DNA from: Onchidella celtica
Taxonomy: Eukaryota; Mollusca; Gastropoda; Systellommatophora; Onchidiidae
Direction of reading: 5' to 3'
Assembly (NCBI GenBank): GCA_963931925.1
Contig: OZ007571.1
Coordinates: 35,692,233 to 35,756,232, forward strand
Length of the DNA: 64,000 bases
Shown: in pieces, positions 13,301 to 56,600 of the stretch
Position numbering within the stretch: position 1 is the stretch's first letter
Layout: each line of letters opens with the position of its first letter
Notes under the pieces: model-generated
Database searches by the model: none
Seen by the model: the letters and a program-made list of their open reading frames with translations, nothing else
Told to the model about the DNA's origin: nothing
Made by a program: the position numbers and the translations under genes

Positions 13301-16300
13301 TTTAAATTTTGATCTTATACAAACATTTGGTAAATGTTTGGATTAAGACTTTGCTAGACTATCTACTATACACAACTGAGTTGTCAATTCTGACCAGTAT
13401 ACAATTTGACAGACTTGATGCTGGCAGCTGTTTTTGTTGGGGTTTTCGTTAGGCATCATTTTCTTCTTTGCGGTGACATTGATTAAAGAAATTGATATGT
13501 TCCATTTTATCTGTAAAGGTCAAAAATAATTGCTGGAAGTGGAAGACCCAGTGACACATAACTAGGTGATGACAAAATTTTGCTCATCATGAACTACTAT
13601 TATGAACCTATAATCCTAACATTTTTCGTGAACACTTTGCTGTCAAAAACATAGGATTGGGATAGGGAAGGATAGCTGATATGAATTCAGAGTTATTAAA
13701 ATATTTTTTCTTATATAACTGCAGTATATTGTCATGTGCACATAGAAGTCCTACTTTTGCCAGTTGCCAGAGCTTGCTTGTCTTGTCTTTAAGTCTTGTT
13801 TTGTTTTATTTAAAAATCTCCACTGTTGTATTGCCAATTGGTTTTGGCTTCAGAAATAGAAATGGATTGCATTGTCAGTGTGAAGTGTTGCCAGTGCTTG
13901 AATGGTCTGTGTGCTAGCCAGAGATTGTTGAGATCTTGAATCTTTTCATCTACAAACACATTTACTGCCTCCATATTAATATTATGTCATGTTCCCACCT
14001 GTTCAGATATTAAATGATTTTTACATTGGCTTATGCTGATTGACTGAGACTTATTGTTCTGTTCACACAATTGCTGCATTTGGTTCTAAGATGTAGAGTG
14101 ACTGCAAGTTTTGTCAAACAAAGGGAAACAGGCGATAAGATAATAGAGACTCGTATCTTTTAAAAGTGCATTCCTCATGCATCAAATAAAAGGACATTGA
14201 AAAAATTGGCACTGTTTGTTTTGGAAAGGGTTGGACGAGCAGATTTTTTTGTGCTGAATTTGTGCAGGGTCTGAGAGCTCAGCATGGAAAACTTTTATTT
14301 TAAAGCATCTTCCTCTTCTCTGAGGATTCATTTTGACCAAAACTATATATACCGGAAGAGATGTGAAAAAATAATCTGAGGGAATTCTCTGTAACTTCAT
14401 GGGAGGCCATTCCGTCCTTTTAAAAACTGTTGGAATCAATGGGAACTGGCATAGTTCTATCTGACCCCATCATGAATCCCCACAAGTACATATCAGTCAC
14501 TTGTTGGAACCTCATTAAAACTAAACTTGAAGGCTGTAAGTAGGGGACCATAGCAGGGTTTCTGCGCACCCCAGGAATTCCAGGGCCCCCTGGAATTTTA
14601 AATTTTTTATAAAAACCCCTGGAAAACCCCTTAAAAAAGTGAATTACCCCTGGAATAGCCCTGAAATTTATATTTTCAACAATTGGATAAGGCATGTAGG
14701 TAATGTATTTTCTGCAAAAGGAATACGAGAAAATTGTATTGTAATACATGTACAAGAGAACAGGAGAGAGCTCCTGTGAGTCAGTGAGTAGTTACCAGTG
14801 GTTTTTTTCTCTTATTTTCCGCCCTTTAAGTAGCCCTGGAATTAAACATTTTACTCCTGGAAAAGCCCTGGAAAATATTTCCAAAAGATGTGCAGGAACC
14901 CTGCCATAGTATTTAACATTGAAAGTTATAGCTGAGCAGTGAACACAACTCAGTATTTTTTCTATAGGCCCATTGCGAATGACATCACGTTTTGTTTTGT
15001 TCTTCTGACACCCAAAGATGGCCGGTGGATCAGCTGATGAGTGTAACTTCAAGATATGTCTAAGCGCTTAAAATGCCTGTTGGTTGCATTGTAGTTGATA
15101 TTGTTATGACAGGGGTGAAAAGGCTGGATCCAAGCTGGTCAGATTCAGGATCATTCCCTACCATCTGTGTAAACAAGGGAAAGGAAGTGAAAGAGTTGAC
15201 GGAACATCTCCCATTGAACATGTACACACATGCCATTGTTTATTGTAGCGAACTACTTTAAGCTCGCTGCCGGTTGGTTCGCGGTGCCTCAAATGCTCAC
15301 AGTGCAAATCAGCTAACGAATCAAAATCAGTGCTACAATCAGCTTGATGATGCGTGGGTCCTTACATCAAAGATGGCCGATATGCGCAATGGGCCTATTT
15401 GGCTTTGTCATGAGATTACACTCCCCCAACAACAGCATTTGATTTTAGTTTGAATGAGTTTCCTGCAGCCAAACAACAATACAATGTATGTAGGAACTTT
15501 AGTTTTCTATTGATTACAGGGGAATACAGCACACATATTTCAAATGTTTATTTATGTGTAACTAAAGTATTTAACTCTTTGTGTGCCAGTCACTGTTACA
15601 TCGGTTCTTCCGCTGGTCACCTTTATGCCAATCACCGATGTATAGGTGCACAAGAATGCCTGGTTATTTTGTTTCGGGAAGAAAGAGAGTCAACTTTCTA
15701 TTAATAGATGCTGCTGTATTAGTCTTCTTTCATCTCCCCCACTATATTCTTCCTGTATCGGCAAACGCGGAAAAATTCATGGCACACAAAGAGTTAAGAT
15801 GCCTAGATAATAGAATTTTTCTTCGTCCTATAAAATCAGGTATGGTTTCATGAAAGAGCAAGAAATATCTCATAACATTACCAAATAAGAGGGATAAATA
15901 ACAAGTGATTGCGGTCATGTGTGCCCAAACACAAAATGACAGAACAATGCATTGAGAGTTAATCAATTAAGAAAAAAAATGGAAACTAAGTCTTCATGCC
16001 AAAGCAGCTGGGAAGCACAGCCACATGATGGAGCCTTTCCAGTGTAGTGCATATTGATGATATTACCACAACTGAATGTTATGGGCATGATTAAACTAAA
16101 AGTTGTTTTTTTTTACTTATAGTTACATGTATTTATCATTACTGGTATATTGTCTTTATTTGTGTGCATGTTGCGTGTAGAAGTTGCATAAAGTCATCTC
16201 ACATCCATTCCTTGTCATGGTCTGTATCCCGATTACTATGAGAGCTGTATTTGTGCAAACAAAAAGAGGGACCATCTGTCTCATAGTGGATGTCAATAAC

Positions 16301-19300
16301 TTGATACATTAATGTTTTAGGTGCAATATTAGCTTTCACAACAACAAAGCCATACACTATAAGCATCCAATGTAATCTGAACCATATTCATAAGGTCTGC
16401 TCCGCTGTTAGTCCACACATCTGAGATGTAAATGGAGGAACACAACACATAAAAGAGAAACAAATATTTTGAAATGCATGCAAATGTATAATGTAACACA
16501 CTCTGGAACTTCTCTGTAAAATTTAACTACCAAAACTACTTTCTTAGTTTTAGCTACATGTAACAGTGTTATAAGAAACACCAATTAATACATGTAACTA
16601 AGCCTGTACCTTAATGCCTTAATTCCTGCTTCAGTTCAGAGGTGGCGAAATATTTACTACAACTCCCAATGTACTAGTGGAATTTCCTGTTTCAGTCATA
16701 CAAATTTAATTTGCCCCAAACTGAAGACTCCACAGTCTAAAACACAGACTGCATCTAGGTCTGTGGTAAAAAATTTGATAAACATTTTCCAGATTTACAG
16801 CTGAATGTTTTAAGTTATTTATTTAAACCAGTAAAGGTGCACATGCATGTCTGTGTTCTCTCCCACAGTCACGACCATTGTTCTCTCAGTACTTTTCCCC
16901 CCCTGGCTTTACTTCCTCCTTTCTTTTGCTGTAAGAGTGTAAAAGTTTGCGCTGGAGTGGACAACCTGAGATATAAAAAACTAATTCTCTGAATTTCCAG
17001 AAAATTTTATTTCAAGCTCACCTTCTGGGGTCCCATAAAACTTTCCATAATCTTATCATGGAAACTGTCATGTGCACATAGAAGTCCTACTTTTGCCAGT
17101 TGCCAGAGCTTGCTTGTCTTGTCTTTAAGTCTTGTTTTTTTTTATTTAAAGATCTCCACTGTTGTATTGCCAATTGGTTTTGGCTTCAGAAATAGAAATG
17201 GATTGCATTGTCAGTGTGAAGTGTTGCCAGTGCTTGTGAATTGTGAATTGTGTACTGCGCCTGGCAGGCTGCGTTACAATTTGCTCTGTAGTTTCTGTGT
17301 ATTTTTAGTATTTCATCACTGGATTTCATTTCTGAAACTTTGTGGACTGTTAGTTCAAGTGGCTGTGATCATTTTGGCATAAAAATTATGAGATTTGGTG
17401 TGAAAACTAGCTGGATTTTCAAGAGTATTTCTTACATGATGGAGTTTTTTATATTGGCCATAGCTATATTCAACCTTTCACGCTTCGTTTGGAGATTCGT
17501 GTTCACTCACGCGCCTATCCCACACACAGACCACACAGGTAACAGGGGAAATCCCCAGTCAAGATTTATTGCCTTGTCACTCTACGGCCAGCGACAGGCA
17601 GAGTTGGAGAATGAAAGGGCTATCTGGTTACAGGACAGTGGGGAAACTAAATTATACCCTGTGCAGAAGGAGTTAACATCTGTGCATATTGTGTACACCA
17701 AAGATCAGTTGAGGAGTGTAAAGAGTCAACGCACACACCCTGTGCCATCAACCCTACTAAATAAACTGTCTATTTTAGGTATCAAAAGACAGCCTTGTTC
17801 GTGTGGAGCAAAGAAGGTTAAGAGAGGAAAACGGGGTTGTAATGACTAACCGTGGAGCGGAGACAGAACAAAAACGGAAGGCTACAATTTCACCTAACTT
17901 GATTACTATTGACACTAGACTGAACACACAAGATCTATCTTCAAATTTAAAAGTTATGTTGCTCAACACTCAGTCTGTCCGAAATAAAACTGCTATTGTC
18001 AGTGATTTGATATGTGAAATGAACGTCGACCTCGCATTTCTTACAGAAACGTGGCTGTTAGCTAGTGGTGATGAAATAGCATTGCATGATCTAACACCCC
18101 AGGGATTTAAAACAACATCATTCCCACGGCTTACAGGCAGAGGAGGAGGAGTATGTTTGATGTACAGAGAGTCCATCCATGTATGTAGTAAGAGAATATC
18201 CCATTATGCCAGTTTTGAATGTATGGAATCGGAAGTTGTCTTGAATAGTCGGCCCTTTACCTTCCTGTGCATCTATCGGCCCCCTCCAAACAGAATGAAC
18301 AAATTTACCACCAAAAACTTTATTGAGGAATTTCAAGACCTAATTGACGCATACATGGGCAGAAAGCATCGACCCATGGTTTTGGGAGACTTCAACATTC
18401 ACTTTGATTCGGAAAGCGACCAGGACGCAATGGCTATGAAAAACATTCTAGCCACTCGAGGAATTATACAAATCATCAACAGCCCCACCCATAACAAGAA
18501 TCACATTCTAGACTGGATTGTTATTGATGAGAACGCTGTTTCAACAAAAAATCTCCAGGTAGCGGACAAAGCCATCAGCGACCATTATGTCATCACGGTA
18601 GAGCTAGACATTGAAAAACCGGGACCGCATAAACGTACTATCACCGGCAGAAATGTAAAAAACATGAACCAATGTCAGTTTCATGCAGACTTGGAAAAGC
18701 TCAGTCCGTCCATACTACAAAGCCCAAACAAAGTCGAACGTTATAATGTTCATATGCGCGAGTTGCTAGACCGACACGCCCCTCTTCGCACCAGGACTGT
18801 TTCAGAACGACCCTCAGCACCATGGATGACGCTAGACATCAAAGCGGCTAAGGCTGAACGACGACAGGCAGAGAGGAAGTGGAGAGTGACAAAACTAACA
18901 GTACACAGACAAATATACAAACAGATGCATCATAGAGTGAAAGAACTGATCTGTGCTGCTAAAAATGAATTTTTTAATTACATGATATCAGATTGTACTT
19001 CAACGAGGAACTTATTTCGATTAAGTAAATTTCTTTGTGGTAAAGCAAAATCAAGCGCATTTCCTCAGTATATCCCACAAAGTGAGATAGCTGACAGTTT
19101 TGGCAAGTATTTTAGTGAAAAAATCTCAGCAATACGATCAAAACTTGATTTGTCTTCCGCCCCACCACCCAAATTTGAATCATTTGCTGGCACTGAAATG
19201 TCACATTTTGACACTGTTTCAGTGGAAACTGTTAAGTCAATTATAAAGTTCTCCCCACCTAAGTCATGCTGCCTGGACCCCATTCCAACACCTGTGTTAA

Positions 19301-22300
19301 TTGACAACATAGATAGTTTTGCTGAGATTGTTACAGTTATTATTAACGAATCGCTCCAGTCAGGAACAGTCCCATCACCTTTTAAACAAGCAATCGTTGC
19401 ACCCCTTTTGAAGAAGAACAATTTGTCCCCAGAAGAATTGAAGAATTTCAGGCCCGTGTCAAATCTTCCATTTGTATCAAAAATTTTAGAAAAAGTAGTT
19501 CTTGGTCAATTGAAGAACCACCTGAGTCAAAATAATTTAAATGAAGTGTATCAATCTGCCTACAGGGAATTCCATAACACAGAGACTGCCCTTCTCAAAG
19601 TTCAAAACGATCTCTTGTGTGCTGCTGATGGAGGGATGGTTTCCATCTTGGCCCTCCTTGACCTTAGTGCAGCTTTTGATACTATTGACCATTCTATCCT
19701 CATTGAGAGGCTAGATAAGACCTTTGGTTTATCTGGGACTGTTCTCAAATGGTTCAAGTCATATCTATGTGACCGTACTCAATCAGTTCTTGTAGATAGA
19801 AATATGTCAACATCTTTCAAACTACATTTTGGTGTGCCCCAAGGATCTGTATTGGGTCCTCTTTTGTACACGCTGTATACACAGCCACTTGGTTCAATCA
19901 TAAGAAAGCATAATGTGAAATATCATATGTACGCTGACGACACCCAGCTGTATATGTCTGTTCCACCCTGTGACATCAAGAAACTAGTTACTTCTATAGA
20001 GTGTTGCACTGATGATGTGAAAAACTGGATGGAATCTAACAAGCTAAAGATGAATGAAGATAAGACTGAAGTGATATTGTGTAACACAAAGAGAGGATGG
20101 AATCCGAGTGATGTAGATCATATCTGCATTGGGAATGAGAACATATCTTTTTCAGAGAAGGCTAGAAATTTGGGGGTATATTTTGACTCAAAGCTTTCCA
20201 TGCATTTCCATGTTCATAATTTGTGTAGAACCATCTACTGTGAGATGCGCAGAGTAGGTCAAATGTCATCTTTTCTAAGCGAAGACTCTGTGAGGGTCTT
20301 GATCTCATCGTTTATATTTTCTCGCTTAGATTACTGCAATTCCCTTCTTGCGAACTTATCCAATGAAACTTTAAACAGACTGCAACGATTTCAAAACCAA
20401 GCTGCTAGAATTGTCTTAAAGAAGAAAAAGAGTGAACACATTACCCCCATGCTTATTAAACTGCACTGGTTACCAGTTAAGTTGCGAATCCAGTACAAAA
20501 TAGCAGTTCTGTGTTACAAGTGCATAAACAAAACTGCACCACCTTACCTTTCCACTCTGGTAGAGCCCTACTCACCACCTCGTTCTTTAAGATCAGGCTA
20601 TCAGGGCCTTCTTAAGATTTTTAACTGCAAGTCAAAGAAACTAGGAGGCAGAGCATTTACACACTGTGCCCCGCACATCTGGAACTCACTGCCAAACTCA
20701 TTGCGGGAAGTATCTACCGAGTCAAAATTCAAAACTGGTCTAAAAACCCACCTTTTTAAAAAACACTTTCAGTTGTGAAGTCTCATTCCCAATCCATTTA
20801 TTTTCTCATTTCACTTTAATTTTGCTGTTTTATCGTTTAATTTCTGTCTTATACTATGTTATGTGTGTGTATCTATGTATACAATGTATGTGTAGCAGAG
20901 AGAGAGCGTGAGAGAGAGAGAGTGAGTTGCAGATGGAGAGAGCACGACTTTCTGTAAAGCGCCTAGAGCAAACAGTTTGGATTGGGCGCTATATAAATGA
21001 TCTTCATTATTATTATTATTATTATGGACATAAGCAAATCTTGAGGCTGCATTTTTCAATTCTCCGATCTGGTTTGAAAGGTTTCATACGATTTTCGTAT
21101 GTCATTATATTCAGTTGTGGTCACCAATTTTCTCAGCTTGTCAGGCACCTGAAGACTATCAACCAGATCAAATCTGTTTGACATTTGTCTTTGCTGTCAG
21201 TAGTTAATCATTCATCATGGTTAGCCATTGACAAGAATAATAGACATGTAACATCTATGGTTCATGCATGTAGATTCTTTGTGTAGACGTCATGGAGTTG
21301 AACTGTTGTACCTAAATCCTCAGTTATTATATCATATTTGCCGGCAGATTATTGTGCTAAATAGGATAATCATATCATGGGTTAAGCCTTCGTAACACTG
21401 TCTTTGCACTTGTGCTATCCTTTTCTCTGTGTTAAATAATTTTTGCTTCATTGCCCCACATACACCAGTTGTGAACATGTGCAGTCTTATGATTCTGCAA
21501 TTGAGTTTCCTTTACGTAGGGCTTTTGTGTTAAGAGTAACTTTGTGCAAAAATTTTTTGTCGGGGGTTAAATTTCTTTTCTTGTTGTGTTTTCCTTTAAA
21601 TTAAGTTTACTCATGCTTTTGGTGTGGTCATTTCATGTATGGTAAAGCACTCATGATGTGTTATAAAAGGAGATATATGTGAACACAGACAATGTTGGCA
21701 GCGATAGGAGGAATAACACAATTGAAATGTTGATCACAATTATTTGGATTCAATGACTGCAGATGGCAGGTCAGTGGTGTCATTGTGTCTTTTGCCTTTA
21801 TTATTATTTAATTACTGTATGCTACTTCAGTGGAGGCACTTCTAATTTCTCTCAGCTCAGGCCAGCTTGTGTACTCAAATCACTAAATAATTTTGGTAAT
21901 CACTGTCATACTCGGTGCCAGTGCAAAATGAGTTCTAATGCTGTTTTTCTGCAGTTCCAAGATCGTGAAACAAACTTCATCTGTGAACATCTTATCACTT
22001 ATTGAATGGGCATAGCTGGAAGGAATGTCTTTTTTTTTTTTTTTTTTTGCAGATTCGTGAACTTGTGCCCTCCATCCACCTTTTTTTTTTTTTTACATTC
22101 CTTGAAAACTCAGATACATATGTATTATCTGTATCTATTAACTACTCTTAAATTTATGGCTGCCATGTGTGTGGAAGAAATCCTGTAAACAGGGCTCATG
22201 CTAAGGACTTTCTATGTTACTTTTATATTCCTTTTTGCATGGTTGTGACATGATTTGATGAGAATTTCACATATCTATTCCTGAGCTCCTTTTTTTTCAC

Positions 22301-25300
22301 AGTGCCTCAGGCTGTCCTTTGGCTAACAAGCAGAGAGGAGCCAGGCAAGCTGGATTAGTGACAGAAAATCAAGATCCAGATTTAACTGCCTGGGATGGCA
22401 GTAAAGCAGAAAACATCTAGTGAGTTGCAGTGCTATAAAAAAAAAATTCAGTATTTCCCGACCACTCAATCTAGACAACCCTATCGCTAACCTTATCCTT
22501 ATCCCAACCTTAAACTTGTCCCTAACATTGTCTTTATCCCAAACCCTAACCCTAATATTATACCCAACCGTACCCCTTATTCTTTCAAGCAGGAAACAAC
22601 AAGAAAATCTGTAAAGAATTGTAAGAGTTGATAGAGGCATATGGAGGTAATAGATCAGGAGAAACCATATCATGCTGAGTTTTTTTTAAAGGCAAAGATT
22701 TGTTTTCATTTTCAATGGGCGAGCAGATTATGAAATATCACCCCAAAAAAGGAATTGTGATAACAGTTCAGGAACAAACTGAAGACCACAAAAGTAGTTG
22801 ATTCGAGACAGCTGCCTTCCACTTTAAAATTGCTTTGGCCCTTTTCTACACTTAAATCAGGACATAGTGATAACAAATAGACAAAAAGGACCATAGTCTC
22901 CATTTATGTGGCATGTTTGGATGAGATATCTTGTTGTTTAATCCATTCTTTAGCAATCAGATAGAATCAAGTAAGTTGTAAGATGCTATGACTGTTGGAA
23001 TAGACATTGTTTCCCTACATTGTGAGACCTTAAAATTGTTTTCTGTACTTTTGCATGGACACTGAATAGTAATCATGTGCTCATGGTCTTCATTGATGTT
23101 TAGTGGGGCAGTTACGTGAGTTTACAATGACATAACTAGTGGTTTCTTCCAATCTTTAACAGTTCTGAAAAATCAAATAAGATACATGTGCCATGACATT
23201 TTTCTTTGCTCTGCTCCAGTTGTCCAATCATGGGCTGTGATGGTTCTGGTCATTCCAGTGGAAGTTTCCAGTCACACCGCAGTGTCTCTGGTTGTCCTCG
23301 GGCCACTGCAGCAATGAAGAGGGCCCAGCTATCCCCCAAAGAGTTAACCTTATTGCAGATGAAGGCCCATGCTGGAGAAGGTAAAGCACTGCTTGTGTGA
23401 CAGAAAATACAGTTACTTTCAGTTGTTTTGTTTTTTTTAATGGAAAATATATGTATTAGAATTAATTTTATATAAACCATGTTTTACTTCTAACCTACTA
23501 GTGAGTTAAAGACCTGAAACATTTCTGTGCAGGCAGTCCTTGACCAACAATAAAATTTTAATTATCTTTGTCGAGTCATCAGCTGTTTAGATGGAAGTAG
23601 AAACTCACAATCTTTATTTGGTTGATGTAGATGAATACTTAGCTGCACTGCAAACAGTGGAAAGTGATGATTTATTAGTGATGGTTTAGGATATTGAAGA
23701 ATTAGTGATGATGGTTAATGAGAATGAGAAACTACAAAGAAAACTTTTTTGTTTTGTTTGCATCCTTGGATTACTTTTCTCAAATTGCCCAGACAATTGC
23801 TGTCTCTTAACTCTCACCCTGCACGCGCCACCGTAACCCTTTGTGTACCACCGACTGCTATAGCGGCCTACAAATTTAGCTGTCGGGATTCACAGTGAGG
23901 TGTTTTTATTTTTCGTAGCGCAAACGACGGGAACTTGTCATATTTACTTCCATTTCTAACGATAATAGAGTGATTTCCCTTTGTGAAAAGCCCAGATATG
24001 GAGCTCTCCAAGATTGGAGAGTATTTTTTCTGAATTTATTTTGTCATTTAGAGCAATGAACACGACGCTTACTAACATAGCAGCAATGTCGGACTCTGGC
24101 GGCGATAGTTCTGATGCTTCAAGCATTAATTGATGTTGAAATGACAGATGTAATTGTTGGTGATGATGGAGATGGGAACATTGATGAGCTTTTGCCACCC
24201 AACCTCGACAACGGGTCGCTTCAATGAGCCTGCTTCTAAAAGCAAAAATCCATTGCAGCTCTGACTATTTCAAGAATAAAAATCAGATAAATTTCAGAAT
24301 CATTCATGTCTCCAGTTTTGTTACTTTAACAGTTTCTGTGTTCATTTTCCTCCATGAAAATATATACTTTGTGTGGTTTATTTCAAGAAACACATTTTAT
24401 GTATTTTTTTTTTGTGAACACAACCTAATATTTGGAACGTTTGTTCCGGGGGAGGGGTAGTTTGAACTGCCATCATGGTCAGGTGGGTGGCACACAAAGG
24501 ATTAAAGTCCGCTGTCCGGTCAGTGACATTACTCACGGAGAATCTTATCTGGGGTCACTGACCCATTGCCGCAGTATATCTTGGTGATCACACATGCTGT
24601 CCACGTGGTTTGGTTTTTATTGATCGGTATGAAAACATTCGCTGCCATGCCTTATCACACTTGATAATGAATTAACCAGCAAAACCTTAGTCTGTCAGTC
24701 TAACCAATGATCTGACTTATGATTCCAAACTGACAGCTGTAGTTTTCGTGAGAACGAAGAACGATAACTAGCCACGCCTTCCCAAGCCCTACACAAATGG
24801 TTTCATCCTGACTGACACATACTAATAAACCAATGTGGGCATTTGGGGCAAAGATTATTTCAGAGCTTGTTTCTGATTGGTTCTTAGATACAGACAACTC
24901 CAGATGGCGGTCAGCTTGTGAGAAAATGAGATAATATTGCAAATTTGTTGAGCAACAGTTCGCATGTCGATGTTACATCTTTTGAAAGTGTGGGGAGAGC
25001 CTTTGAAAGCTTAGTCTTTGTGATTCCGACCAGTGGTTCACTGGTTAACATGTCCATGTCACAATGCCTTTGATTTAGAAGAGATACAGTGAACAATAAC
25101 ACGGTGGTTACTTCTCAAAAAGGTCAGTGACCTGATGCGTGAAAATACGGGTGGTGCGTTCAGCTTGACCTTGCCGACTTTTGCCACCCGTGTGGGGTGA
25201 ACTCTTGGGAAGCATGGGCGGCATTTGATGCCTTGCGCAGGGTGAGGGTTAACTTTATACAGAAAAAGGCTGGTTTCTCATGTCAATTGGCAGAACAGCG

Positions 25301-36833: not shown

Positions 36834-39800
36834 CTGAAATATAGTGGATTGTACAATCACACAAAGGTCCAAACAAACTCAGTGGGAACATCACATTAGG
36901 TTTATTTGTCTTAGATCTAAACTTTTTTTAAAAATTAATGGCATACATATATGTTTAGTCACAAGTGAGATTTCCTGCTAATTTTGTTGCGTTTTTTTTT
37001 ATAATGATACTGATTATGAGACTAATTTCAGTTTAACAGCCGTAACGTTTGCCTCCAGCACAACTGATAAACAAAATCCCACTTCAAGGTGATTGTCTTA
37101 ACACAATGGTAAAGGTTATGATCTGGAAAGAAACGTATGGCTGAATTTTTTTTCAATGGCATGTAATTTTTGGGTTCAGTGTAGTCACTGTTCCTATCAA
37201 CATTCCCTCAACCTAATAATTTACTGTTCCCCAATAGGTGTGCCAGAACATTTTGAGCATATGAATTGATGTTGGAATCATTCCATTAATGATTTTTGGA
37301 AACATGAATACAAGAGGAGACATACATATGCGCTGTTCAAAGTAAGTGGACATCCATATCATCACTGCCAAAATTTCTTACTGAACTTACATGACATACA
37401 TCTTCCATCCCTATCTCATTATTTACCCTGGTTCCAACAGAGTTTTATATGATGACAGTAAGTAACAGATAGCTGATACTATGACAATCAGATCTCATAT
37501 ATTATATATTTGTTCCAAACTTTATAACAACAGCACAAATGGCCTGTTGACTAAACAAACCAGCAATAGCAAATAATGAAATGGTGTGAATGGAAAAAGG
37601 ATTAACACCTGCCTACATGAATGTTATTGTTGGAGGAAACTGATCCCCCACCTTTCCTTATGGATACCTACCTTTCTAAGGATAGCCTGAGCCAAGTTCA
37701 TGAAAGCCTTTTCTACATTGATGTTTGCTTTAGCACTAGTTTCCAGGAATGGTATGTTATGTTCTCTTGCAATCTGAATGACAAAAGCAAAGGGTCTGTA
37801 TAAGTCACAAATTCAAATTTTCTTAACCCTCACCCTGCGAGGGGCGGCAATTGTCGGTATTGACTTGCAAGCGCTCACGCCGCACAGGCGGCAAAAGTCG
37901 GCAAGGTCAAGCTGACCGCGCCATGCGCAAGCCGTATTTTCACGCATCAGGTCACTGACCCTTTTGAGACGTAACCACCGTGTTATTGTTCACTGTATCT
38001 CTTCTAAATCAAAGGCATTGTGACATGGACATGTTAACCAGTGAACCACTGGTCGGAATCACAAAGACTAAGCTTTCAAAGGCTCTCCCCACACTTTCAA
38101 AAGATGTAACATCGACATGCGAACTGTTGCTCAACAAATTTGCAATATTATCTCATTTTCTCACAAGCTGACCACCATCTGGAGTTGTCTGTATCTAAGA
38201 ACCAATCAGAAACAAGCTCTGAAATAATCTTTGCCCCAAATGCCCACATTGGTTTATTTGTATGTGTCAATCAGGATGAAACCATTTGTGTAGGGCTTGG
38301 GAGGGCATGGCTAGTTATCATGCTTCATTCTCACGAAAACTACAGCTATCAGTTTGGAATCATAAGTCAGATCATTGGTTAGAGACTGATAGACTAAGGT
38401 TTTGCTGCTTAATTCATTATCAAGCGTGATAAGGCATAACAGCGAATGTTTTCATACCGATCAATAAAAACCGAACCACGCGGACAGCGTATGTGGTCAT
38501 CGTCTAGCGGCACGGGTCAGTGACCCCAGATAAGATTCTCCGTGAGTAATGTCACTGACTGGGCAGCCGGCTTTACGGGTAACGCGCAGGGTGAGCGTTA
38601 ATATGCTCTAAATCAAGTTCGATGTTGATGATATGTGAAAAGCTCTTTCCCTGTTAGATTTAAAATAGTTTCTGACAATTGACATCAACAGAATAAAATA
38701 ACTGAAAGAATGCAATCCCTGAGGTTGGACAAAACTGTCATTTTCCACATATACAGCAATTAAGTGATATTAAGTTCTGAATTTCTGAAGATACAAACAG
38801 CCAGATCTATGGGCATAAAGTGTCTTTAGCCATATGCAGTTCACAAAAACTTTTAAATATGCCTAATGTTGCCCAACCCATTGCTTCTATCTTCCTCAAA
38901 ACTCACAGCTTCTCCTCTCGCAGTGGGCACTTGTCTCTTGTCATCCATGTCACACTTGTTTCCCAAGATCATCTTCTCCACATCTTCATTGGCATGCTGG
39001 ATAAATTATGCACACATACATTAATAAGCCTGGAAATCAGCAATATACTGAGCTTAAATTTCTACCCGGTAACCAAAACTGACACACTTCTACTTTGAAA
39101 GGAATCTGTCATTCATTAAATCCTCAGACACAAAATTCTCACATGTAGCTTTATTCAGCTGAAGTTATGACTTCTCAACAATCAGCTCAAACCACTGGTA
39201 CAAACATCATTGAAAACAAAACAAAATCTTTAAAAACTGGTAAGGCACAAAAAGTTCACAGACTACCACATTTTCTCCTTTACACTAAATTACAGTTGTA
39301 TTCCAAAAATATAGTCCAGCTTACTTCATTCAAAGTCCATGGGACAGTGCTGTAAACGATATCTAAACACAATTGACAAATACCCCACCAAGATGTGAGA
39401 AAGGAGATTAAAATTAAACTTGCCTTTTAATAATCATTTCCATTACTGTGTTCCCATGGAGTGATCAAAAGTGATGCATACAAGATCAGACATTAAATGC
39501 ACAAATATTCTCTCACATACTGGATTGCATGCAGTATGGTTTACTGCTCAGATGCCATAGATACCTCATTATTCAGTCCCAATGAACAGAATGAGAAATA
39601 CTGTATTTTAATTTAAGGGGGTATGCGGGTCCTGAAGACGATTTTTGTTATTATGAGAAATAGACAATTTTAACTATTATAATCAAATTCAGGATGTCTG
39701 AATTTGCAGGAAAAAAATGCAAACAAATTTGTTTGTCATATTGTTGCCATGGCAGCATCTTGGATTTTGAGTCCCCAAAAAGTACCAAATTCAATATAGA

Positions 39801-42800
39801 TAGGCTTCGCCAAATTTTTACTGGATTTATTTGAAACTTCTCTTATGTCTTATTCAATCCAATTAAAAACTTTATACAGAAGGGAATTTTGATACCTCTG
39901 CGGATCTTTTGTTATAAATTTTTGAAAATGGTATGTAGCGGAATTCCATTTTTTCTTATTTTCTATAAAAAAAAAATTCAACCAAAAAAAAAATGAAAAG
40001 TTAAACAAATTTCCTGCTGTATGAATTTTTTTATTTGTTCAAACATGTTGTTAGCCAAATTTTATACCAATTGGTCAATAAATAAAAAACTAGTTCACAG
40101 ATCACTGATCAAAAGTGCAATTTCGAGAAAATCGCATTTGAAAGTTTTTTTCAATAAAAATGTTATTGAAACGTGTTACACATGGCTAAAGTCATCATTA
40201 CTGGTGTGCTAAGCCTCAACAATGATTTCCAAACCACCAAAGGCTTATGACAGATGTGTACGGAGGAGTAGGGGTTTTGATAGCGACACTAAGATGTTAT
40301 TTAGGGCTAATTTTGCAGCCCAATGGCATGATTCTTGTGCCTTTTTCTTGACCCCCCACCTCACTAAAAGGCATATTTCAGGGTTATAAACATTCAAAAT
40401 TGACATTTGGTTAGTAAAATAGTGTTCCTAAATGGATAAACTAACCGGAAAGTACAAAATCGCGATATCGGTATTTTTAAGCCTAATTTCGATTTCAGGA
40501 CCCGCGCCCCCCTTTAACATCATGTCCTGAAATTTACCAATGCCAGTAATTTCTCAATGCATATCTACAAAATGTTGCCACTGTCTAGACCACCCACATC
40601 TTCAAAACTGCCAATTATTACCTCATCAATGTTTCTGAGCCACTTGGAAATGTTGTCAAAAGTTTTGACATTGGTGATGTCGTACACCAACATGATGCCC
40701 ATTGAACCACGGTAGTAAGAGGTGGTTATGGTGTGAAATCTCTCTTGCCCTGCTGTGTCCCTGCAGCAATTAAAAAACAATTTTGCATCACATTTACATA
40801 ATATGATATAATGGATATATTTCTCACAAAGAAAATCAATTTTTCTCTTTCAATCAGTTAGGTTGCATGGTGATAAAAATTTTCGTCTACATAACTAAAA
40901 AATGGTGTCTGAACAATCTTCAAGCATTCTGTCTTAATACCTCTAGATCTATGTCAAGCATATCTTCAAGTTTTCAGTATTAACACCTCCAAAAGTCAAG
41001 CAAGTTTTCAAGTATTCAGCCTTTACACCCCCAAAGGTCAATCAAGTCTTCAGGTATTCTGTCTTATGACCTCAAAATGTCAGGAAAGTCTTCAAGCATC
41101 CTGTCTTAACACCTACAAACGTCAAGAACATCTCCATGCATTCTGTCTCAAAGCCTCTTAGGGACAAAGGACTTGAAATACAATGCACAAACAGATTTGT
41201 CAAACTTGACCGCTCCCCTTCATTTTTTCTTTCCTCTCTTCTCATTTGCCATGAGCTTCTCACTTACAAGCCAAAAATATCTGTCAACAGACAAATGATC
41301 CAACTGTTCTAAGAGAAAAAAAAAACAAAAACAAAACACAATTATGGGAATGAACCATCCACATCCGTAAATACCAAAAAACATGATCATTTCAAAATCT
41401 ATATTCTCAACAAGTTTAGTGCATACTATTTCTTATGTTTTTGCTTACCATATTTGAAGTTTTATCTTTTTCCCCTCCAATTCTACAGTCTTGATCTTGA
41501 AGTCTATGCCTGAAAAGGAAACAATATACCACTTGATATAAAATAAAGTGAGAACAGACTACAAACACATCAGAAAACTGAGCAATTAAGAATAAAACAG
41601 GCTTGTCCTGAACTGTGGAATTAAATAAATACTATACATTCCCTCCTCAACTCCTTCCCTTCTGCACACCTGATTGTCCTCTCACTCACTTCATCTCCCT
41701 GCGAAATGTTGTCCTTGCCTAACTATCCTTACATCCACTTGTTATTCTCCATTCTATTTTGTTCCTGGCTTGTTCCCTGCCCACCGGCAACACTAGTGTG
41801 ATTTATAAACCATGTCAATCAGACACACAAACTAAAAACACACACATGTTCCCTGGCTGACACTCTCAGCCCAAACTTGTTTATAGCCCATTATGTAAAT
41901 TGGGATGGATTAACGAATCCGGTTATCACCAGAAAACACACTAAAGCCCCTTGCTTAGTGGGGAAAGAGTGAGAAAAAATATTAAAATGCCTAAACTTGA
42001 AAGATATTATATTACTAACTACATCCCCAATCCCAAACCTATCTAAATTAAACCTGCCATAACCCTCATCATGTCCGCAATTGTATCCCTAAACATCAAT
42101 ACAACCTGGTACCATAATCATTGATCCTTCGGCAAATTCTTATCTACGCTATTAATAATAATAATGGATGGCATTTATACAGCACATATCCATTTAAAAT
42201 GCTCTATGTGCTTTACAGAAGCAACATGTCAACCACAGAGCAGAATGGAGCGCCTGCGAAGCGCTCAACATACTACGCTGCTGCTTTCTCTCTCCCTGTC
42301 TCACTCACACTCTCTCTCTACCTCTCTCTATCTCAGAGCAAATTGTAACGCAGCCTATTAGGCGCAGTTCACAACTCACAACTCAAATAATATTTAAATA
42401 TTTATTAATAATAATATATATTTAATAATGAATAATAAATTTTGTTGTTGCTGGTGGGGGATGATATGGATAAATTTTAATCTATTAATTTCAATTTTGC
42501 CCGGGCAGTGGCCTGTTCGGCCGGCTCTTTACGATTTCCAACTGCCAAGGTATCTTTAAAGTGCGCAACCTGCACACGGGTCCTCCGAATTTTTCGTCCT
42601 TATCCGAGAAGACTAGGTACTCGATCCTACCCCCCCCCCACCAATAGGATCAGAGACATGAAAATATGAGAAAAAAAAAACAATTTCCAACATGCCTGCA
42701 CTGCAAACCCGGGACTCGTGGCATGAGAGGCGAGCACCTTGCCTCTAGACCACCTTAGTCACTGTGAGTTTAAAAATTAAACTACGCCCCACTTTCACCT

Positions 42801-45800
42801 GATTCACTAACATTGTGACTGTAAATACAATTTCTTCAAGATTCATGACAACTTATTTCATAATGCTGATAATGATGTATCTCAATAAAAAAATATTTAA
42901 AAAACAGGAAAGCCCCCCCCCCCCCCCCCATTGAACGGGACGTTGCTAATTAGAAATATAAATGTAAATCAAATTTAAAACATGTAAAAATGTAAATGAT
43001 TTCTTTTAGTCAGTGTGAACTGAACAGCTCATCTCTCTCTACGGTCTCTGTATTTACTGAAAATATATTTTGGGGGTTTATTACTTTTTTGTTTGCATGG
43101 AGGTTAGTTCATTTTTAATTGTCTGTCTGACTTTCTCTGTGATCCACAAAATTGGCTAATAATTCATCTTTAAAAAAAAAGCCTAGTCACAATTTTATCC
43201 TCTGGAGCAAAGCAACGATGATCAGTCGGAGGGGAAGCAGAAAAAAAGTAACAAAAAAAAAAAGTCACCTCTTGCGGAGATTCAAATCCCCCCTTACCAA
43301 CTTGGCAGGCGATTTTACTTAGCATGCCACCGGGGAACCTGAGTAAAAGCGTTACTAAGCAGGGTCTCTCCAATGCTACTGAGGACATGATAACTGATAA
43401 GTATCGCTAAAAATAAAAGACAACCTGTGCATTATTATTGTAAGAAACACAATGTGTTACTCCGAATCGAGGCATCTTACCTTGTGAAGAGCCTAATTAT
43501 TCAACAAAAAAAGCCACAATTGTGAACTAAAGGAACTCTTCCTTAACAAAAATCACAAAACCAAAAATCCATCTCGCAAATAAGCGTGGCCTTTTTCTTT
43601 TCACCATTCCTGACACTAGCTAGCTCTATATTATCCTCAGGCTACTGTTATTTACATAGATTTCAAACTTTATTCACTACTAATATTATGAATGCACCTG
43701 CTGGGCACCCACACACTATAAATTCACTGCTCACTGTGTATTTTTCAAATGTCACGCCAAAGGAAAACTCATTTAAAAAGCATGAGGAGATGGATTGGAA
43801 GGGGTCTGTTTGCAATCAGCAAACTCTCTTACATATTTACAGGCAGTTTTCTTAACCCTCACCCTGCGAGGGGCGGCAATTGTCGGTATTTACTTGCAAG
43901 CGCTCACGCCGCACAAACACGTTGGCAATTGTCGGTATTTACTTGCAAGCGCTCACGCCGCACGGGCGGCAAAAGTTGGGAAGGTCAAGCTGACCGCACC
44001 ATGCGCAAGCCGTATTTTCACGCATCAGGTCACTGACCTTTTTGAGACGTAACCACCGTGTTATTGTTCACTGTATCTCTTCTAAATCAAAGGCATTGTG
44101 ACATGGACATGTTAACCAGTGAACCACTGGTCGGAATCACAAAGACTAAACTTTCAAAGGCTCTCCCCACACTTTCAAAAGATGTAACATCGACATGCGA
44201 ACTGTTGCTCAACAAATTTGCAATATTATCTCATTTTCTCACAAGCTGACCACCATCTGGAGTTGTTAGTATCTAAGAACCAATCAGAAACAAGCTCTGA
44301 AATAATCTTTGCCCCAAATGCCCACATTGGTTTATTAGTATGTGTCAATCAGGATGAAACCATTTATGTAGGGCTTGGGAGGGCGTGGCTAGTTATCATG
44401 CTTCGTTCTCACGAAAACCACAGCTGTCAGTTCGGAATCATGTCAGATCACTGGTTAGAGACTGACAGGCTAATATTTTGCTGGTTAATTTATAATCAAG
44501 AATGATAAGGCATAGCAGCGAATGTTTTCATACCGATCAATAAAAACCGAACCACGTGGACAGCATTTGTGGTCATCGCATAGCGGCGCGGGTCAGTGAC
44601 CCCAGATAAGATTCTTCGTGAGTAAGGTCACTGACCGTGCAGCGGGCTTTACAGGTAGCGCGCGGGGTATGGGTTAATAAGCAACAACTCGGAAGGAGTT
44701 CCGAATGCGTTACATGCTAAAGAGGGTTTATTTTGAGGGGGTTGAAAAAAAAAGGGGCTAGGTATTTTTGGGGGGTTTACTAAAGAAATAGAAACAAATA
44801 TTTCGTGGCATGTTTCGCTTTCTCTTATGTGTCTCTCTCCCCTCTCTATCTCGCTTCTGTTTCATCTCGATTTCTCTGCATTAGAATCATCTGAAAGAGA
44901 ACACATACATAATAATCATAAATCATGACAATACTCGGATCCGCACTCACACCCTTTCGCTCCTAAATCACACGTCTTAACCATTTCGCCATGCAGGTGA
45001 GTTAACAGATTGTCGGTAAAAATTTACTTATACTCACAGTCAGTACCTTGACCTAAATTACGGAAAGTTACCAACCTTGTTAATTTGCATACTTTTATAA
45101 AATTATGAATCGGCTTAGTAGCGAAACAATCCGATTTCAGCTGCTCAGAGATTGCATGATCTGAGCTAATGAGGGCCTGCTTGAGTGTACATCGATCGCC
45201 AGTGGCTACCCCAGCCCCTTTTCGCCCAATTAGTCAATCTGACTACCGCCCATTGATACAAACTGACTAGACCCTCATGCCCCCAGGTGCATCTGACCAT
45301 TCCATGTGTTGTGAGTTTAAATTCGTGAACACTATACCAAGTTTTGGTTCAGTAAACCTTCTCCAGCCGCGCTTTTTGGTAAATTCTGTTACTCTTACTG
45401 TGACCTCTCCCCAGCAAGTTTCAAAATGGCAACTGTTTTCGGATTTTGTCTCACTTCAGACTTTTTTCTTGGATTATACTATTTTTCTTAGCAAGTATGT
45501 TACAAATGTTATTGTGAATATGAAGTGATAATTGGTCATACAGTCTGGAACAATGTGTAACAGTGAGCTTTACTCAATAACGGTAAAAATTTCATGTAAC
45601 GCATAGTGGCATACGGAACTCCTCCCAACAACTCAGCTCAGAAATAACTCTGAACATTTGTTTCGGTGTCTTAGTTGGTTCATCATGAGACAGGCCTAAT
45701 CCTATGACTAAACCAACTAGACTAGTCTCTAGATCAGATCTGGATCTACAATACATGGTCTTTCTCATTGATGCTGCCAGGTTAAATAAAAAACAACAAA

Positions 45801-50767: not shown

Positions 50768-50940
50768 TCAGTAGTGTAGTGGTTAGCATCTTTGTTGTCA
50801 GGCAGGGGATGGTGGTTTGATTCTCAGCATGGCAGTTTTTTTTTTCTTATGAAAGTCTTTTCATTAGGTATCAATTTTCTTTTTAAATAAAATCCAAGAA
50901 CAATAATAGGTAATAAATCCAGTTGTTTTTTTTGTTGAAA
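50768..50940 (+). repeat. tRNA-like (Asp/Glu-type) unit followed by oligo-T, SINE-like
   Basis: GTAGTGTAGTGGTTAGCATC resembles a Pol III A box region of tRNA-Asp/Glu and GTGGTTTGATTCTCAG resembles a B box. A T11 run follows. The acceptor stem does not pair, so it is not a functional tRNA. A related unit follows at 50,951. Confidence 0.6.
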
Positions 50941-50950
50941 ACTTCACCTG

Positions 50951-51112
50951 TCAGTCGGGGGACAGTGGTTCGATTCTCAGCATGGTAAGTTTTTGTTCTT
51001 CTTTTCTTATAAAAGTCTTTCTATCAGTAGCCAATCTATTTTGGAATTTTGTTGTTTTTTTTAATCCAACAACATTAGGGAATAAATCCAGTTTGTTTGT
51101 TTCTTTGTAATT
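50951..51112 (+). repeat. Second, A-box-less copy of the 50.77-kb unit
   Basis: Repeats GTCAG, GACAGTGGTTCGATTCTCAG and the downstream T-rich tail (cttataaaagtctttc, aataaatccagtt) of the preceding unit. The 5' A-box part is missing. Confidence 0.65.
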
Positions 51113-51119
51113 AGTCAAC

Positions 51120-51390
51120 ACCAATATCTGCGGATAAACCCAAGCTTTATCCGCCGATACTGTTGGCCCCCCAAAATCTGCCGATAGTGTTGGCAGATAA
51201 ATCCAAGCAGTATCCGCCGATAATTAAACCTGGGCAGTATCTGCTGATAATATTGCCGGCCAATAATGTTGGTGGATGAACCCGGGCAGTATCCGCGGAT
51301 AATGTTGCCGGCCCAGGGCTGCACCTGCTGATAGTGTTGGCGGCCCAGGCAGTATCTGCCAATAATGTTGATGGATAAACCTGGGCAGTA
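51120..51390 (+). repeat. Minisatellite of hairpin-forming units, array 1
   Basis: Degenerate units of roughly 35-50 bp built on GGGCAGTATCCGCCGATAAT and GTTGGCGGATAAACCT. TATCCGCC and GGCGGATA within a unit are inverted, so each can pair. Continues as array 2 after an inserted block. Confidence 0.8.
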
Positions 51391-51907
51391 ATAATAATAA
51401 TGATAATGATAAATATAATTTCTGTAGCGCATTTCTAATAAAATTATTACTCAGTGCGCTGTACATTGCATCAATGATTCATGATGCATACTTTCCAAAT
51501 CTCATACTAAAATACATCCATACACACTCTCAGTTTCACACACATAGACGCTCTTAGTCATATAGCAGTAGGTTATATAATCAATCATAACATCAAAGTA
51601 CAGAATAGAATTTTGAAAATTTAACAGTTTCGGAGGAAAAGTGATGTTTTATGCTTTTCTTAAAGCTTTCAAGATTCGGTGATTCACGAATGTTCAAGGG
51701 TATCTGGTTCTAGACAAAAGGTCCAAAATAATTGAAAGATCTATGGCCTATAGTTGTATAGTTTTTAGATGGGATTCTTAAGATTGTTTTGTCACTTGAT
51801 GATCTTAGTGAACGAGATGGTGTGTAGACTTGTAAAGAATTTTTGAGATAGCTGGGTGGTGTGTTATTTAAACATTTGTAGCAAAAAACAGCAATTTTGT
51901 ATGTAAT
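51391..51907 (-). repeat. Dispersed repeat inserted in the minisatellite
   Basis: Non-repetitive block bounded by minisatellite on both sides. It starts with (TAA)n and contains tgtagcgcatttctaat and cagtgcgctgtacattg, like inverted 3' tails of invertebrate LINE/SINE elements (ATT repeats on the minus strand). Remaining sequence unrecognised. Probably a 3' fragment of a retroelement on the minus strand. Confidence 0.5.
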
Positions 51908-52112
51908 TCAGTATCCGCCAATATTATCGGTGGATAAACCTGGGCAATATCTGCCAATAATGTTGGCAGGCAATGGCAGTCTTATTTTTGTAAACATTTG
52001 TAGCAAAAAACAGCAATTTTGTATGTAATTCAGTATCCGCCAATATTATCGGTGGATAAACATGGGCAGTATCTGCCAATAATGTTGGCAGGCAATGGCA
52101 GTCTTATCAAAT
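51880..52112 (+). repeat. Two tandem copies (about 115 bp) of minisatellite plus insert end, array 2
   Basis: The segment GTAGCAAAAAACAGCAATTT through GGCAATGGCAGTCTTAT is present twice, almost identical. It joins the last bases of the inserted block to minisatellite units, so the duplication occurred after the insertion. Confidence 0.85.
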
Positions 52113-52438
52113 ATACTCCACACTGGAATAAATGATGAGTTGAAAAATCTTCAAATAAATAATGTTTGTTGCAGTTTTGATGCAACCTAAATTTCATCGC
52201 CTATGGCAATAAAATCAGAAGTAATCATGAGATTTGTTATATACAGTAAGAATTAACACAATCACAGAATGTGTATAAGGTGCATATATATAATATCTAT
52301 GATGTGACTGAACTCCTTCATTGCGATAAAATTCCTATCCAACTGAAATCATTTGTTTGTCCAATGATCCAGTTTACTAAATCAAATTTGTATCATGATG
52401 TCAGAAAATCAGAAAACAACAGCACCTGATTGATTTAA

Positions 52439-52923
52439 GGAAGTGTATATTTAGGCCGAATACGGCCTATACAACCCGGTACTGTGCTATTTGGGCCGAA
52501 GGTATTTTAGGCAAGGGAGTGTCAATTGCCACCGCAGAATATGTTGTCCATTGTGGATTCAAGTGTGCATTGGAATGGTCAGATGGACCTGGAGGCGTGA
52601 GGGTCTAGTCAGTTTGTATCAATGGGCGGTAGTCAGATTGACTAGTCAGGCGAATAGGGGCTGGGGTAGCCATTGGCGATCGACGTACCGTCAATAGCCA
52701 CCGCAAAATGCGGTAGTATTAGTAATTGACGCTACCGGCTACTGGAAAATGCGGTGGTGATTGACGCTACTTTTAGGCAATATTGTACGTACACAAATTC
52801 TGTTTTCAAAAAAAAAAAAAAAATCAGAACAGTGCAAACTGCAAACTCGCATTATCGGCCCAAATAACTCGGAACCAGGGTTTTGTGCTATTTAGGCCGT
52901 ATTCGGCCCAAATATACCTAGCC
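52439..52923. mobile_element. Short inverted-repeat element with 9-bp target duplication (MULE-like?)
   Basis: TTGATTTAA occurs at 52,430-52,438 and 52,924-52,932, directly flanking inverted ends that share TATATTT and GGCCGAATACGGCC over about 29 bp. A 9-bp duplication fits Mutator-like elements. Inside, 52,591-52,685 is the reverse complement of 45,193-45,285, and GTCAAT/ACCGC/GCGGT modules repeat. Confidence 0.75.
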
Positions 52924-53575
52924 TTGATTTAAACCAAATGATGTAAATGTAGGCAATCTGACTTAAATATGGAAACCCACATGATTTTGGAAGTGAAATT
53001 TGTTGAATTCCATTCCCACACCCAAATTACATTTTGTGACGAAAATTTAAGTCTTGAATGCATGGTTTTTAGATCTTGATCTAGAAAAATAAACTGGCCG
53101 TGCCATGCTTGAGTAATGTGATTAGTTTGCACTACATTTTGATATGGGGACTCTTTCTTTGATGCTGTTCTTGGTGTGTTTATATTCTAATTTGTTTGTC
53201 TCAAGGTGTGACATCCAGACACTCCAAAGGGAAATCAGCTGCTTAACTTTAACTACCTTTGTTTGTGCTCAGACTGTGCAGGATAGCCGATTTAGCTGGT
53301 TTCATGATTGTGCATAATTTGTATTGAAATGTTCATGATTGTGCGTAAATTGTGTTGAGTGAATATCGGCTATGGTATTGGTGTGATGTTTGCCGGCCAA
53401 GTCTTGACATGTTAAGACCAAACTACTCTCACATACAGGTAGATGATACACCTGTGTTTTTTGTGGTTACTCCCAGTGTGTGGGCCACCAAGTTAGTCAT
53501 CCTGAACTTTATTTTATGGACAAATTCATACTTTCTTAAGACATTTCAAAACTGTGACTTCCTGCATAAACAGAC

Positions 53576-53676
53576 ATGAATCGCTATCAGATTTCCAAAC
53601 AGTTGGGAGATGGAACATATGGCAGTGTCTTGCTTGCCACCACCGTGGAAAATAATGAGAAGGTGGCCATCAAAAA
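53576..53676 (+). CDS. MAK/CILK1-like: Kinase exon 1 (start, Gly-rich loop, VAIKK)
   Basis: ATG in context cagacATGA. Residues 1-33 plus two bases, including GDGTYGSV and the ATP-anchoring Lys33. Donor gtaagt. Confidence 0.95.
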
Positions 53677-56600
53677 GTAAGTATTCATCTATATATATCT
53701 ATATGAGTATAAAAATGTTGGAAGTAGTCCCTTTATCTTGGAATTAAGGCTCAGGAACAAATTGCGTATGTTATATATCACATGTACCCCTGTGTCCTAG
53801 GTTAGCACCTATTTGTTTCCAAGCTCTGCTTATTCAGTTGCTGTCATCATTTCTAATAAATAGAATGTGATGTTTTTTAATATTAATATCAAAATTTATT
53901 TGTGTTTTTTGAGTGAAGGACTGTGATTATGAATGACAAATTCAGGCTCATATGACATAGGAAAAGGATTTGAAGGGAGAGGAGAGTGCTTGGCCTTTTT
54001 TTTTTTTTTTTTTCATCAATAATACATTTTAGGTGATGTAGAAAACATTCAACTTTGCAGCAATCATACAATTTCAGGGTACATGATATTTATAAATTCA
54101 TGTCTTCATCAGGTATCAGGGTTGTAGGAAATTTAATTCCATAACATTATCTCATGTTATAAATGCAAGAATCATCCTTCCCTGTTTCTATGGGACAGTG
54201 AAAACCATCAGATGAATTGATACACTCTTAGAAGTGTTCTGTCAAAGGCGAAAACAACATAAAGTATTGTCATATTGTAAAATTAAAAAGATTTTGTCAG
54301 TGTGTCATTTACCTACCCCACCAAGAAGTTATATTACGCATTTAAATTTTATACACCATATAGAGTGGTATTATTAATCACTTCCTTGCCTTGCCCGGAA
54401 CTGTTCCGGGCTGTCTAATCTCGCTATGCTGCCATGTGCCCGGAACTGTTTCGGGCTTAGTTCGTATGCAATTCTTGAGTGATCATATGGAAACCATTCC
54501 CGAATTATGATTGTTTTGTATTTCCTAGTTAGTTAGCCTACTTACTTGCGTCATTTGCATGTATTTTGAGAGCGTTGGGTTTATGGTGTGTAATTTTGAG
54601 ATTTGCTTCTTTTGTCCCCTATAAAACCCGGCATATGAGTGGAAATCTGTGAGGCAGGCAAGGGGTTAATTATTTCTTTGTGAAACTCAAAGCATTTTAT
54701 ACTATAGGTACTATGAACATAATATATATCGGTGTCGTGGCCAAATCATCTGTCTCAAAGAAACAAAACTTTAACAGGAGAAGGGAAAACTGTTTTATCA
54801 CAAAACTAATTGACAGCCGAGTTGGAAAATATATTTCTTATGGAGGAGCTTGAATGGTGGTGTGTATGTGGCATAACAATTATGCAATCACAGATTGATA
54901 GATTGTGCAAAGTTTCTTGTCAGCTGGTCTGCAGTTTGGCAAAAAAAAATGAAGCCAAGCTCAGTTCATTGCATGACAAGTCACAGGACAAGCGCTTGAA
55001 AAATAAATTAAAGTGTACTGGGCTGCTTTTTCCATCATATCATAGTGCCAGCAGTGGTCATTTTATGAAATATAACCAAAACATGCACTAAGGTAATACA
55101 AATGAGAAACATCATAGGCCAATTTCTAGAGAAGAAAAAAAACATTAAAAAGTAAAAAGAGGGCATAAGATACAACTGGTGGGATGCTCTGTCAGCCCAT
55201 TATGGAATCAGCTGGCCATTGGTCAGTGGCATTTTGTGCATGGTCTTATACAGTTTGTGCACAGCGGAAAATGAATGGGTATGTCAGGTGTGGAATGGGC
55301 ATTAAAAATTTCACCCTATCTCAAAAGTTTACTGTCTGAAGGTTATCTGACAGTGTAGTGGTCGATGTATTTCCACATTCTGACTTGAAAGAACCAAAAA
55401 AGTGAAAATTGAAATTTCCAGAGGTCGACATTTTCGCCATGAAACTGACGATATATGTCTTAAGGTGTATTTTTTTTGCCTATATAGGGGGATAATGCAT
55501 TCTTAACCTTCGCCATATGTCACTTAAAACAATGCATGATATGCGTCATGGTGTCTAATCGACACCAATTCCTAAGGAACAGTTTATTAGATGCCCTGTT
55601 TAAAAGTTTTGTGTCTGTCAGACCCCAGAATATACAAATAGGGATATGACAATAAAATCCTCCTCAGGAGTGTGGTGTATCTGAGGCCCCAAGACGTGAG
55701 ACATAGGATATGGCAATAATCCTACAATAAAATAAAATCCTCTATAAAAGTATGGTGTCTGTGAGACCTCTGGACATATAGGTGGGAATAGTAAAATGCA
55801 TGTGCGGTGGTGAGCACACATGGGCATATTTTATAATTTTAAAACTATGAGAAGCTTGGCAATGATGCCATTAAAGAATTCCTGGAATTTCAAGAAAAAA
55901 TTCCCAGAAAAAAGATAATTGCTTGGGGGTCCATCAGACCCACGATGTATGGAGAAGGTTAAAAAATTGATCTTGTGCAATTGAAGGTGCATTATGCAGC
56001 CTTACAGACATAAGTTGCATCTTCAGTTCCTTCTTCTGTGAGATTAACATAAAAATTAAAGAATGTTGTTAGGGACATATAGTCTGTTGCAAAGCCAGGT
56101 AGAGAAAATACTGTGTTATGTACACTGGGCAGTAGAGGCCTGTAGTGTAAAATACCAGGTGCCCCTGACATCAGCCAAAATTAAATATGAAGAGAAACAA
56201 GCTACCATCATAGATTTAATTTTACAAAGAAGGAAACAGTAGTATGTACTCAGAATCACAAGGAGCACCCTGCATATGTGAGCAAATCTAAGCTGTTTCT
56301 GAGATTCCATGACTTATTGAAGATCAAAGTTTCTGTCATACAGAGAAGTCATTTCAGGTAGTTACATGTAAATGACAAAATTGGACAGGTTATTTGCATG
56401 CCAGTTGTCAGTTTTCATTAAAAATTTATCCAGATGATTTGTTGTGATTTTGTGTGATTATGTGCCTGTTCAACTGTCTGACCATGACTGTTGCACATTT
56501 TTCACCTTCAAGATGACCTCTTTCTCTTTCCTGACCCTTTCCTTTGTCCTTGTCACAGTTTACAGATTTATTTCTCCATGTAATTAGTCAGCGTAGCTAT

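Follow-up and report, generated by a model that had tools for sequence, protein, structure and literature searches.

Short TTAA-flanked mini-transposons of probable piggyBac and Kolobok type in a 64-kb window of the Onchidella celtica genome

In this study, we examined six families of short elements, A to F, in a 64,000-nucleotide stretch of the Onchidella celtica genome (C5:35692233-35756232, hereafter the window) and searched for their relatives in the 1.14-Gb assembly, whose 43 contigs include 18 comprising nearly all of it. It is very likely that A to E are short, non-autonomous cut-and-paste miniature inverted-repeat transposable elements (MITEs) of the piggyBac type, and that F is a MITE belonging most likely to Kolobok. 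The set would then consist of documented TTAA-targeting MITEs of known kind, piggyBac-type in A to E and, probably, Kolobok-type in F. An earlier note on this stretch had given each of the six exact TTAA flanks. All six are present at or near the places it named, but the flanks are not exact throughout, since B has GTAA on its left. The elements are as follows.

37823-38601, plus strand: A, complete; TTAA CCCTCACCCTGC ... / TTAA CGCTCACCCTGC, with 771 bp inside.
43852-44677, plus strand: A, complete; 49-bp internal duplication; right tip decayed, matching at only 10 of 14 letters.
23807-25252, minus strand: A, complete but split by B.
23837-24501, plus strand: B, nested in A; flanks GTAA (left) and TTAA (right); ends CCCTTTGTGTACCA / TCCTTTGTGTGCCA.
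15571-15797, unstranded: C; TTAA CTCTTTGTGTGCCA at each end.
54374-54669, unstranded: D; common family ends CCCCTTCCCTGC / CCCCTTGCCTGCC; two 19-bp palindromes close to the left end.
55503-55962, unstranded: E; ends CCTTCGCCATATG / CCTTCTCCATACA; an old family with internal repeats.
39613-40517, unstranded: F; ends GGGGGTATGCGGGTCCTG / AGGGGGGCGCGGGTCCTG, starting with purines, Kolobok-like.
384-893, plus strand: core related to A (73-76% identity), for which no TTAA ends were found.

Three complete copies of A are therefore listed where four had been counted; the fourth, which we assume to be the stretch 384-893, is only an A-like core lacking TTAA ends. B and C have common termini and unrelated internal sequence, as had been proposed, and because of these common tips A to E represent four end types. 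The left tip of the window D copy is a decayed form of the family's left end.

A to E were assigned to piggyBac from their target and end class, not from a matched enzyme. Their ends start with CCCTC in A (CACTC or CGCTC opposite), CCCTT in B, CTCTT in C, CCCCTT in D and CCTTC in E. The terminal inverted repeat motifs of piggyBac given in an excerpt of PMC10813416 are CCCTC, CCCTT and CCCAT; A to E fall in this end class, with the second end of A and the ends of C, D and E as variants rather than exact motifs. A TTAA duplication is indicated for A by empty sites and edges, for B, C and D by edges, and weakly for E. As is established for piggyBac, an enzyme of this type would cut at the element ends and join the element to TTAA, leaving one TTAA on each side, and such enzymes have probably mobilised A to E (ends starting CCY or CTC) in trans.

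To define the families genome-wide, we made a loose first search and scored only the best 40 places per family (40 of 4543 candidates for A, 2476 for C, 1458 for E, 1138 for F, 936 for D and 125 for B). All six families are short, carry no transposase gene, have inverted ends and occur in high copy number, as MITEs do. The expectation that each would be multicopy with TTAA at both edges held for copy number, and for the edges in most families, but only in a minority of E copies. Where edges were read, TTAA stood on both sides in 7 of 7 copies of A (window copy excluded), 8 of 8 other copies of B (16/16 ends), 9/10 of D, 6/10 of C, 1/10 of E and, by script, 8/10 of F; in the two F copies that the script missed, TTAA is present but is accompanied by a longer G run or an additional A. 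With queries extended 20 bp past TTAA (C, D, E and F) or including the flank letters only (B), matches ended no further than 5 bp from the TTAA on either side in 34/39 cases for C, 29/39 for D, 28/39 for B, 26/39 for F and 7/39 for E.

We also compared the window with 30 Markov-shuffled windows, scanning each for two TTAAs that bound inverted ends of 14 bp with at most 3 mismatches. The scan gave 7 matches against a shuffled mean of 0.67 (maximum 3), an excess of about 10-fold. Three of the seven lie outside A to F: those at 7953 and 10160 look like chance, and that at 10466 is a 41-bp perfect palindrome. Neither D nor F reached the threshold; both were recovered only with looser settings. With an A+T filter, 6 of 6988 TTAA pairs remained, compared with 77 of 837,298 for all other 4-mers pooled, at least 19 of these 77 deriving from a single TAGATC simple repeat. 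This repeat alone lifts some 4-mers above the TTAA rate; when it is set aside, TTAA exceeds the other 4-mers. The palindrome (10461-10556) is a 41-bp perfect inverted repeat with a 14-nt loop, and since TTAA lies inside its arms it is not a TTAA-flanked element. It had no Rfam match, and an Rfam scan of the window at gathering thresholds found no family.

The genome encodes many piggyBac transposases. A PF13843 search gave 1223 candidates, of which 116 places were scored; all 116 were over the cut-off, and many are stop-free. Around the gene, 18 of 30 fetched loci had TTAA-flanked inverted ends (at least 11/14), and five two-sided end types were found: CCTTTAG, CCCTTTCCCTGCTA, CCCATATYCTAC, CCCRTATTTGCCCA and CYCTCAATCTTC. 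Eleven single-sided candidate ends were added from the 3' regions at another 40 places; because they were selected for beginning with C or for resembling a known tip, they do not count as independent support for a C start. One of them, the L157 type, was also seen independently in another flank. The 595-aa protein of locus L018 matches piggyBac 6x67 (2.3e-34) with three aspartates aligned, which we take to be the catalytic ones. Taken together, these data support the suggestion that several piggyBac-type transposases have been active, but none of those whose ends were read has the ends of A to E. None was found in the window, in line with the earlier note: the longest frames of the 30 loci gave a best E value of 0.005 there, inside the frame of a long interspersed nuclear element (LINE), which is not credible. 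Like piggyBac MITEs, A to E are gene-less, target TTAA and have short inverted ends that start with CCY (CTC in C), and their genome also contains open frames for piggyBac transposases; they differ in that their ends are identical to those of no autonomous element read here.

The search for parents gave further negative results. Full-length piggyBac relatives with the same ends, which the earlier note had proposed to look for, were not found among the loci examined, and a search of the piggyBac-locus ends for the tips of A to E returned none identical. Locus L010 lies inside a pogo-type frame, for which no empty site was found elsewhere, and its nearest relative, L207, had no TTAA end pair. 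Two longer copies of B (L108 and L109) were ruled out as parents of B, as each carries another insertion. Short readings in B resembling a piggyBac N-terminus were too weak and were not used. A literature search with the element end strings, judged by titles, returned no paper on a related subject: of six strings, four occurred in no paper and two in eight papers with unrelated titles.

F differs in its ends. In ten copies, all 20 ends have two purines after TTAA, mostly as part of GGGGG. According to an excerpt of PMC9587614, Kolobok also makes TTAA duplications, with ends 5'-RR and YY-3', unlike piggyBac; for T2-MITEs, the part of PMC6004289 consulted gives TTAA plus AGGRR and RR...YY ends. 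F has both features of Kolobok, the RR...YY ends and a TTAA duplication (filled and empty sites in A, below). TTAA therefore does not serve as the piggyBac-specific signature for which it had been taken, because F has the ends given for Kolobok and T2-MITEs, which take the same target. Compared with T2-MITE/Kolobok elements of Xenopus and others, F is alike in target and RR...YY ends, and different in that its G run exceeds AGGRR and that no transposase is linked to it. Its ends and target suggest that another TTAA-specific transposase mobilised F, and the Kolobok superfamily is the most likely source of this enzyme. Among molluscs, Kolobok has been found almost only in bivalves, according to an excerpt of PMC10294476. 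The three longest frames of F had no Pfam match.

Two other assignments of F were considered. The transposase of F was not found, which would leave room for an enzyme of neither the piggyBac nor the Kolobok type. Sola3, which is TTAA-specific, is one candidate and an undescribed enzyme another. We consider this unlikely, since the ends of F fit the Kolobok/T2-MITE rule in the excerpts of PMC9587614 and PMC6004289. A closely related version, in which F depends on a TTAA-specific enzyme from outside both superfamilies and the autonomous form is as yet undescribed, seems slightly less likely; if true, two or more unrelated enzymes in this genome use common TTAA sites, inserting into one another's edges. 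Still less likely is the view of the earlier note that all six families, F included, are piggyBac-type MITEs. F and the others have the TTAA target in common. However, all 20 F ends start with purines and the five two-sided piggyBac end types start with C, no more than 3 of 16 tip letters agree between F and the compared piggyBac ends, and the published end rule, as excerpted from PMC9587614, separates Kolobok from piggyBac. Kolobok remains our preferred assignment for F.

Empty sites show a 4-bp target duplication for A and F. Across the junction of one A copy (L005) there were 31 matches to paralogues of the host repeat, many from one array; the six fetched were all continuous, with no element and a single TTGA. 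For another A copy (L006), five of five fetched paralogues (of 7 matches) were continuous with one 4-bp word, TTAT in three, TTCT in one and TCAT in one. The extra sequence in the filled A sites is the element plus one 4-bp word, and A may have inserted into a copy of the host repeat that had mutated to TTAA. A copy of F at C2:30523124 sits within a copy of A, at the inner TTAA of A; this site has a single TTAA in four printed empty A copies and two TTAAs once filled. Empty sites with a single TTAA, which had been proposed as a check, are thus represented by F in A, but the two A sites retain one 4-bp word other than TTAA. Since TTAA is its own reverse complement, filled sites would read alike if it were instead part of each element's inverted end (a palindromic terminus); we regard this as very improbable, as the empty sites retain one 4-bp word, exactly one TTAA for F in A and one word for A in two other repeats. 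At the window site of B in A, the left flank is GTAA and the right TTAA, and other aligned A copies have GTAA at this place. GTAA is among the rare target-site duplications listed in an excerpt of PMC10813416. The left GTAA of B may have arisen by decay, or B may have inserted at a site other than TTAA, with one change afterwards.

Several observations weigh against piggyBac-type A to E and Kolobok-type F. The empty sites of A show TTGA or TTAT/TTCT/TCAT and never TTAA, and empty-site evidence covers A and F only, with B, C, D and E resting on edges. E retains TTAA in 8 of 20 ends, several others being off by one letter. Of 78 ends each, 4 in F, 4 in D, 5 in C and 3 in E had matches that ran more than 5 bp past TTAA. 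Among the piggyBac loci, 12 of the 30 fetched had no clear end pair within 1.5 kb; ends were read at 70 of the 116 places, 40 of them on one side only, and scoring was limited to the best candidates. None of these 70 places gave a transposase whose ends are exactly those of A, B/C, D or E; the nearest, L010, agrees with the common left tip of D in 12 of the first 13 letters by eye and is not identical. For F, no autonomous element with its ends was found, and no search aimed at a Kolobok transposase was made.

The least probable proposal is that F is an internally deleted form of L191, a large (6.2-kb) transposon carrying an N-terminal domain like that of RAG1. F ends are present on both sides of L191, with 5.3 kb containing coding frames between them, but the element inside has separate ends, which are CAC...GTG-like, and shows 4-bp duplications (CCCT in L191, TGCA in its relative L194). 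L194, with an open 991-aa frame, carries no F sequence. The inner part of L191 matches the RAG1 importin-binding domain (PF12560, 25.2 bits, cut-off 23.3); L194 reaches 26.8 bits for PF12560 and 60.5 bits for DUF1280. Their position is as follows.

L191:308-5575 and L194:1628-5709: Chapaev transposon with a RAG1-N-terminus-like domain and CAC/GTG ends.

CAC...GTG ends with 4-bp duplications are described as Chapaev marks in an excerpt of PMC4079192, and a Chapa domain in one of PMC4411706. L191 and L194 show CAC/GTG ends and a 4-bp duplication, within the 3-4 bp of Chapaev, one L191 tip being changed, and resemble Chapaev in the RAG1-importin-binding-like N-terminus and a CxxC motif as well. 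These ends and duplications exclude the inner element as the parent of F, and the junctions refute L191 as its autonomous form: a Chapaev transposon, which is neither a TTAA element nor a relative of F, was inserted into one F copy. Two other long pairs of F ends were rejected as parents, L192 and L193 being two separate F copies and an F copy with another insertion. Chapaev relatives are abundant: 677 candidates yielded 121 matches, and 14 of these lie within 991-aa open frames.

The families appear to differ in age. The best-scored copies were 96-97% identical to the window copy in A (complete ones), 92-96% in F, 86-90% in C, 84-87% in D, 80-89% in B and 73-80% in E. Judged from these best matches only, A and F appear young and E old, and the spread suggests successive waves of insertion. 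The subterminal pattern of F occurred exactly 255 times in the genome (the first places being listed), compared with 0 for the backward control. One short window thus samples several waves of TTAA-targeting mini-transposons in a genome with numerous piggyBac transposases, many with open frames, and end sets of differing apparent age are available for matching transposases. TTAA by itself is not a sound basis for placing a MITE in piggyBac; piggyBac-like and Kolobok-like families are told apart by the letters of their ends.

Some elements are stacked at their edges. A piggyBac copy and an F copy share one TTAA (L013:3888-3901), as do a C copy and a piggyBac end of the L157 type (L129:1731-1760); with B, inserted 26 bp inside A, these make three cases, a small sample. 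Adjoining a D copy, C6:63487757-63488145 contains seven more partial matches to the left subterminal part of D, about 45 bp apart, possibly the birth of a satellite from a MITE.

Among the places listed, piggyBac transposases pile up on a single strand at C7:37181548-37895132 (14/14) and C10:34880106-35199749 (7/7), with borders chosen after looking. The pile-ups contain several piggyBac lineages, one nested in a pogo frame, and would resemble a unistrand piRNA (PIWI-interacting RNA) cluster. A Chapaev match within the first (C7:37273267) lies on the opposite strand. At C12:7444241-8061118, the places listed include 12 occurrences of a 180-bp repeat, all on one strand and spaced 52-63 kb apart; this is a very large tandem array.

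The window itself is animal DNA, with a C2HC zinc-finger exon (Pfam zf-C2HC, 2.9e-16) and a 999-aa endonuclease/reverse-transcriptase (LINE) frame at 17779-20778. A 124-bp repeat lies at 45181-45304 and 52571-52694 in opposite orientation (91% identical); read by eye, this unit apparently also belongs to the sequence inserted into the B copies L108 and L109. A 171-bp repeat, 99% identical, is found at 13730-13900 and at 17066-17236, directly upstream of the LINE frame; the copy at 13730-13900 is probably a second LINE fragment.

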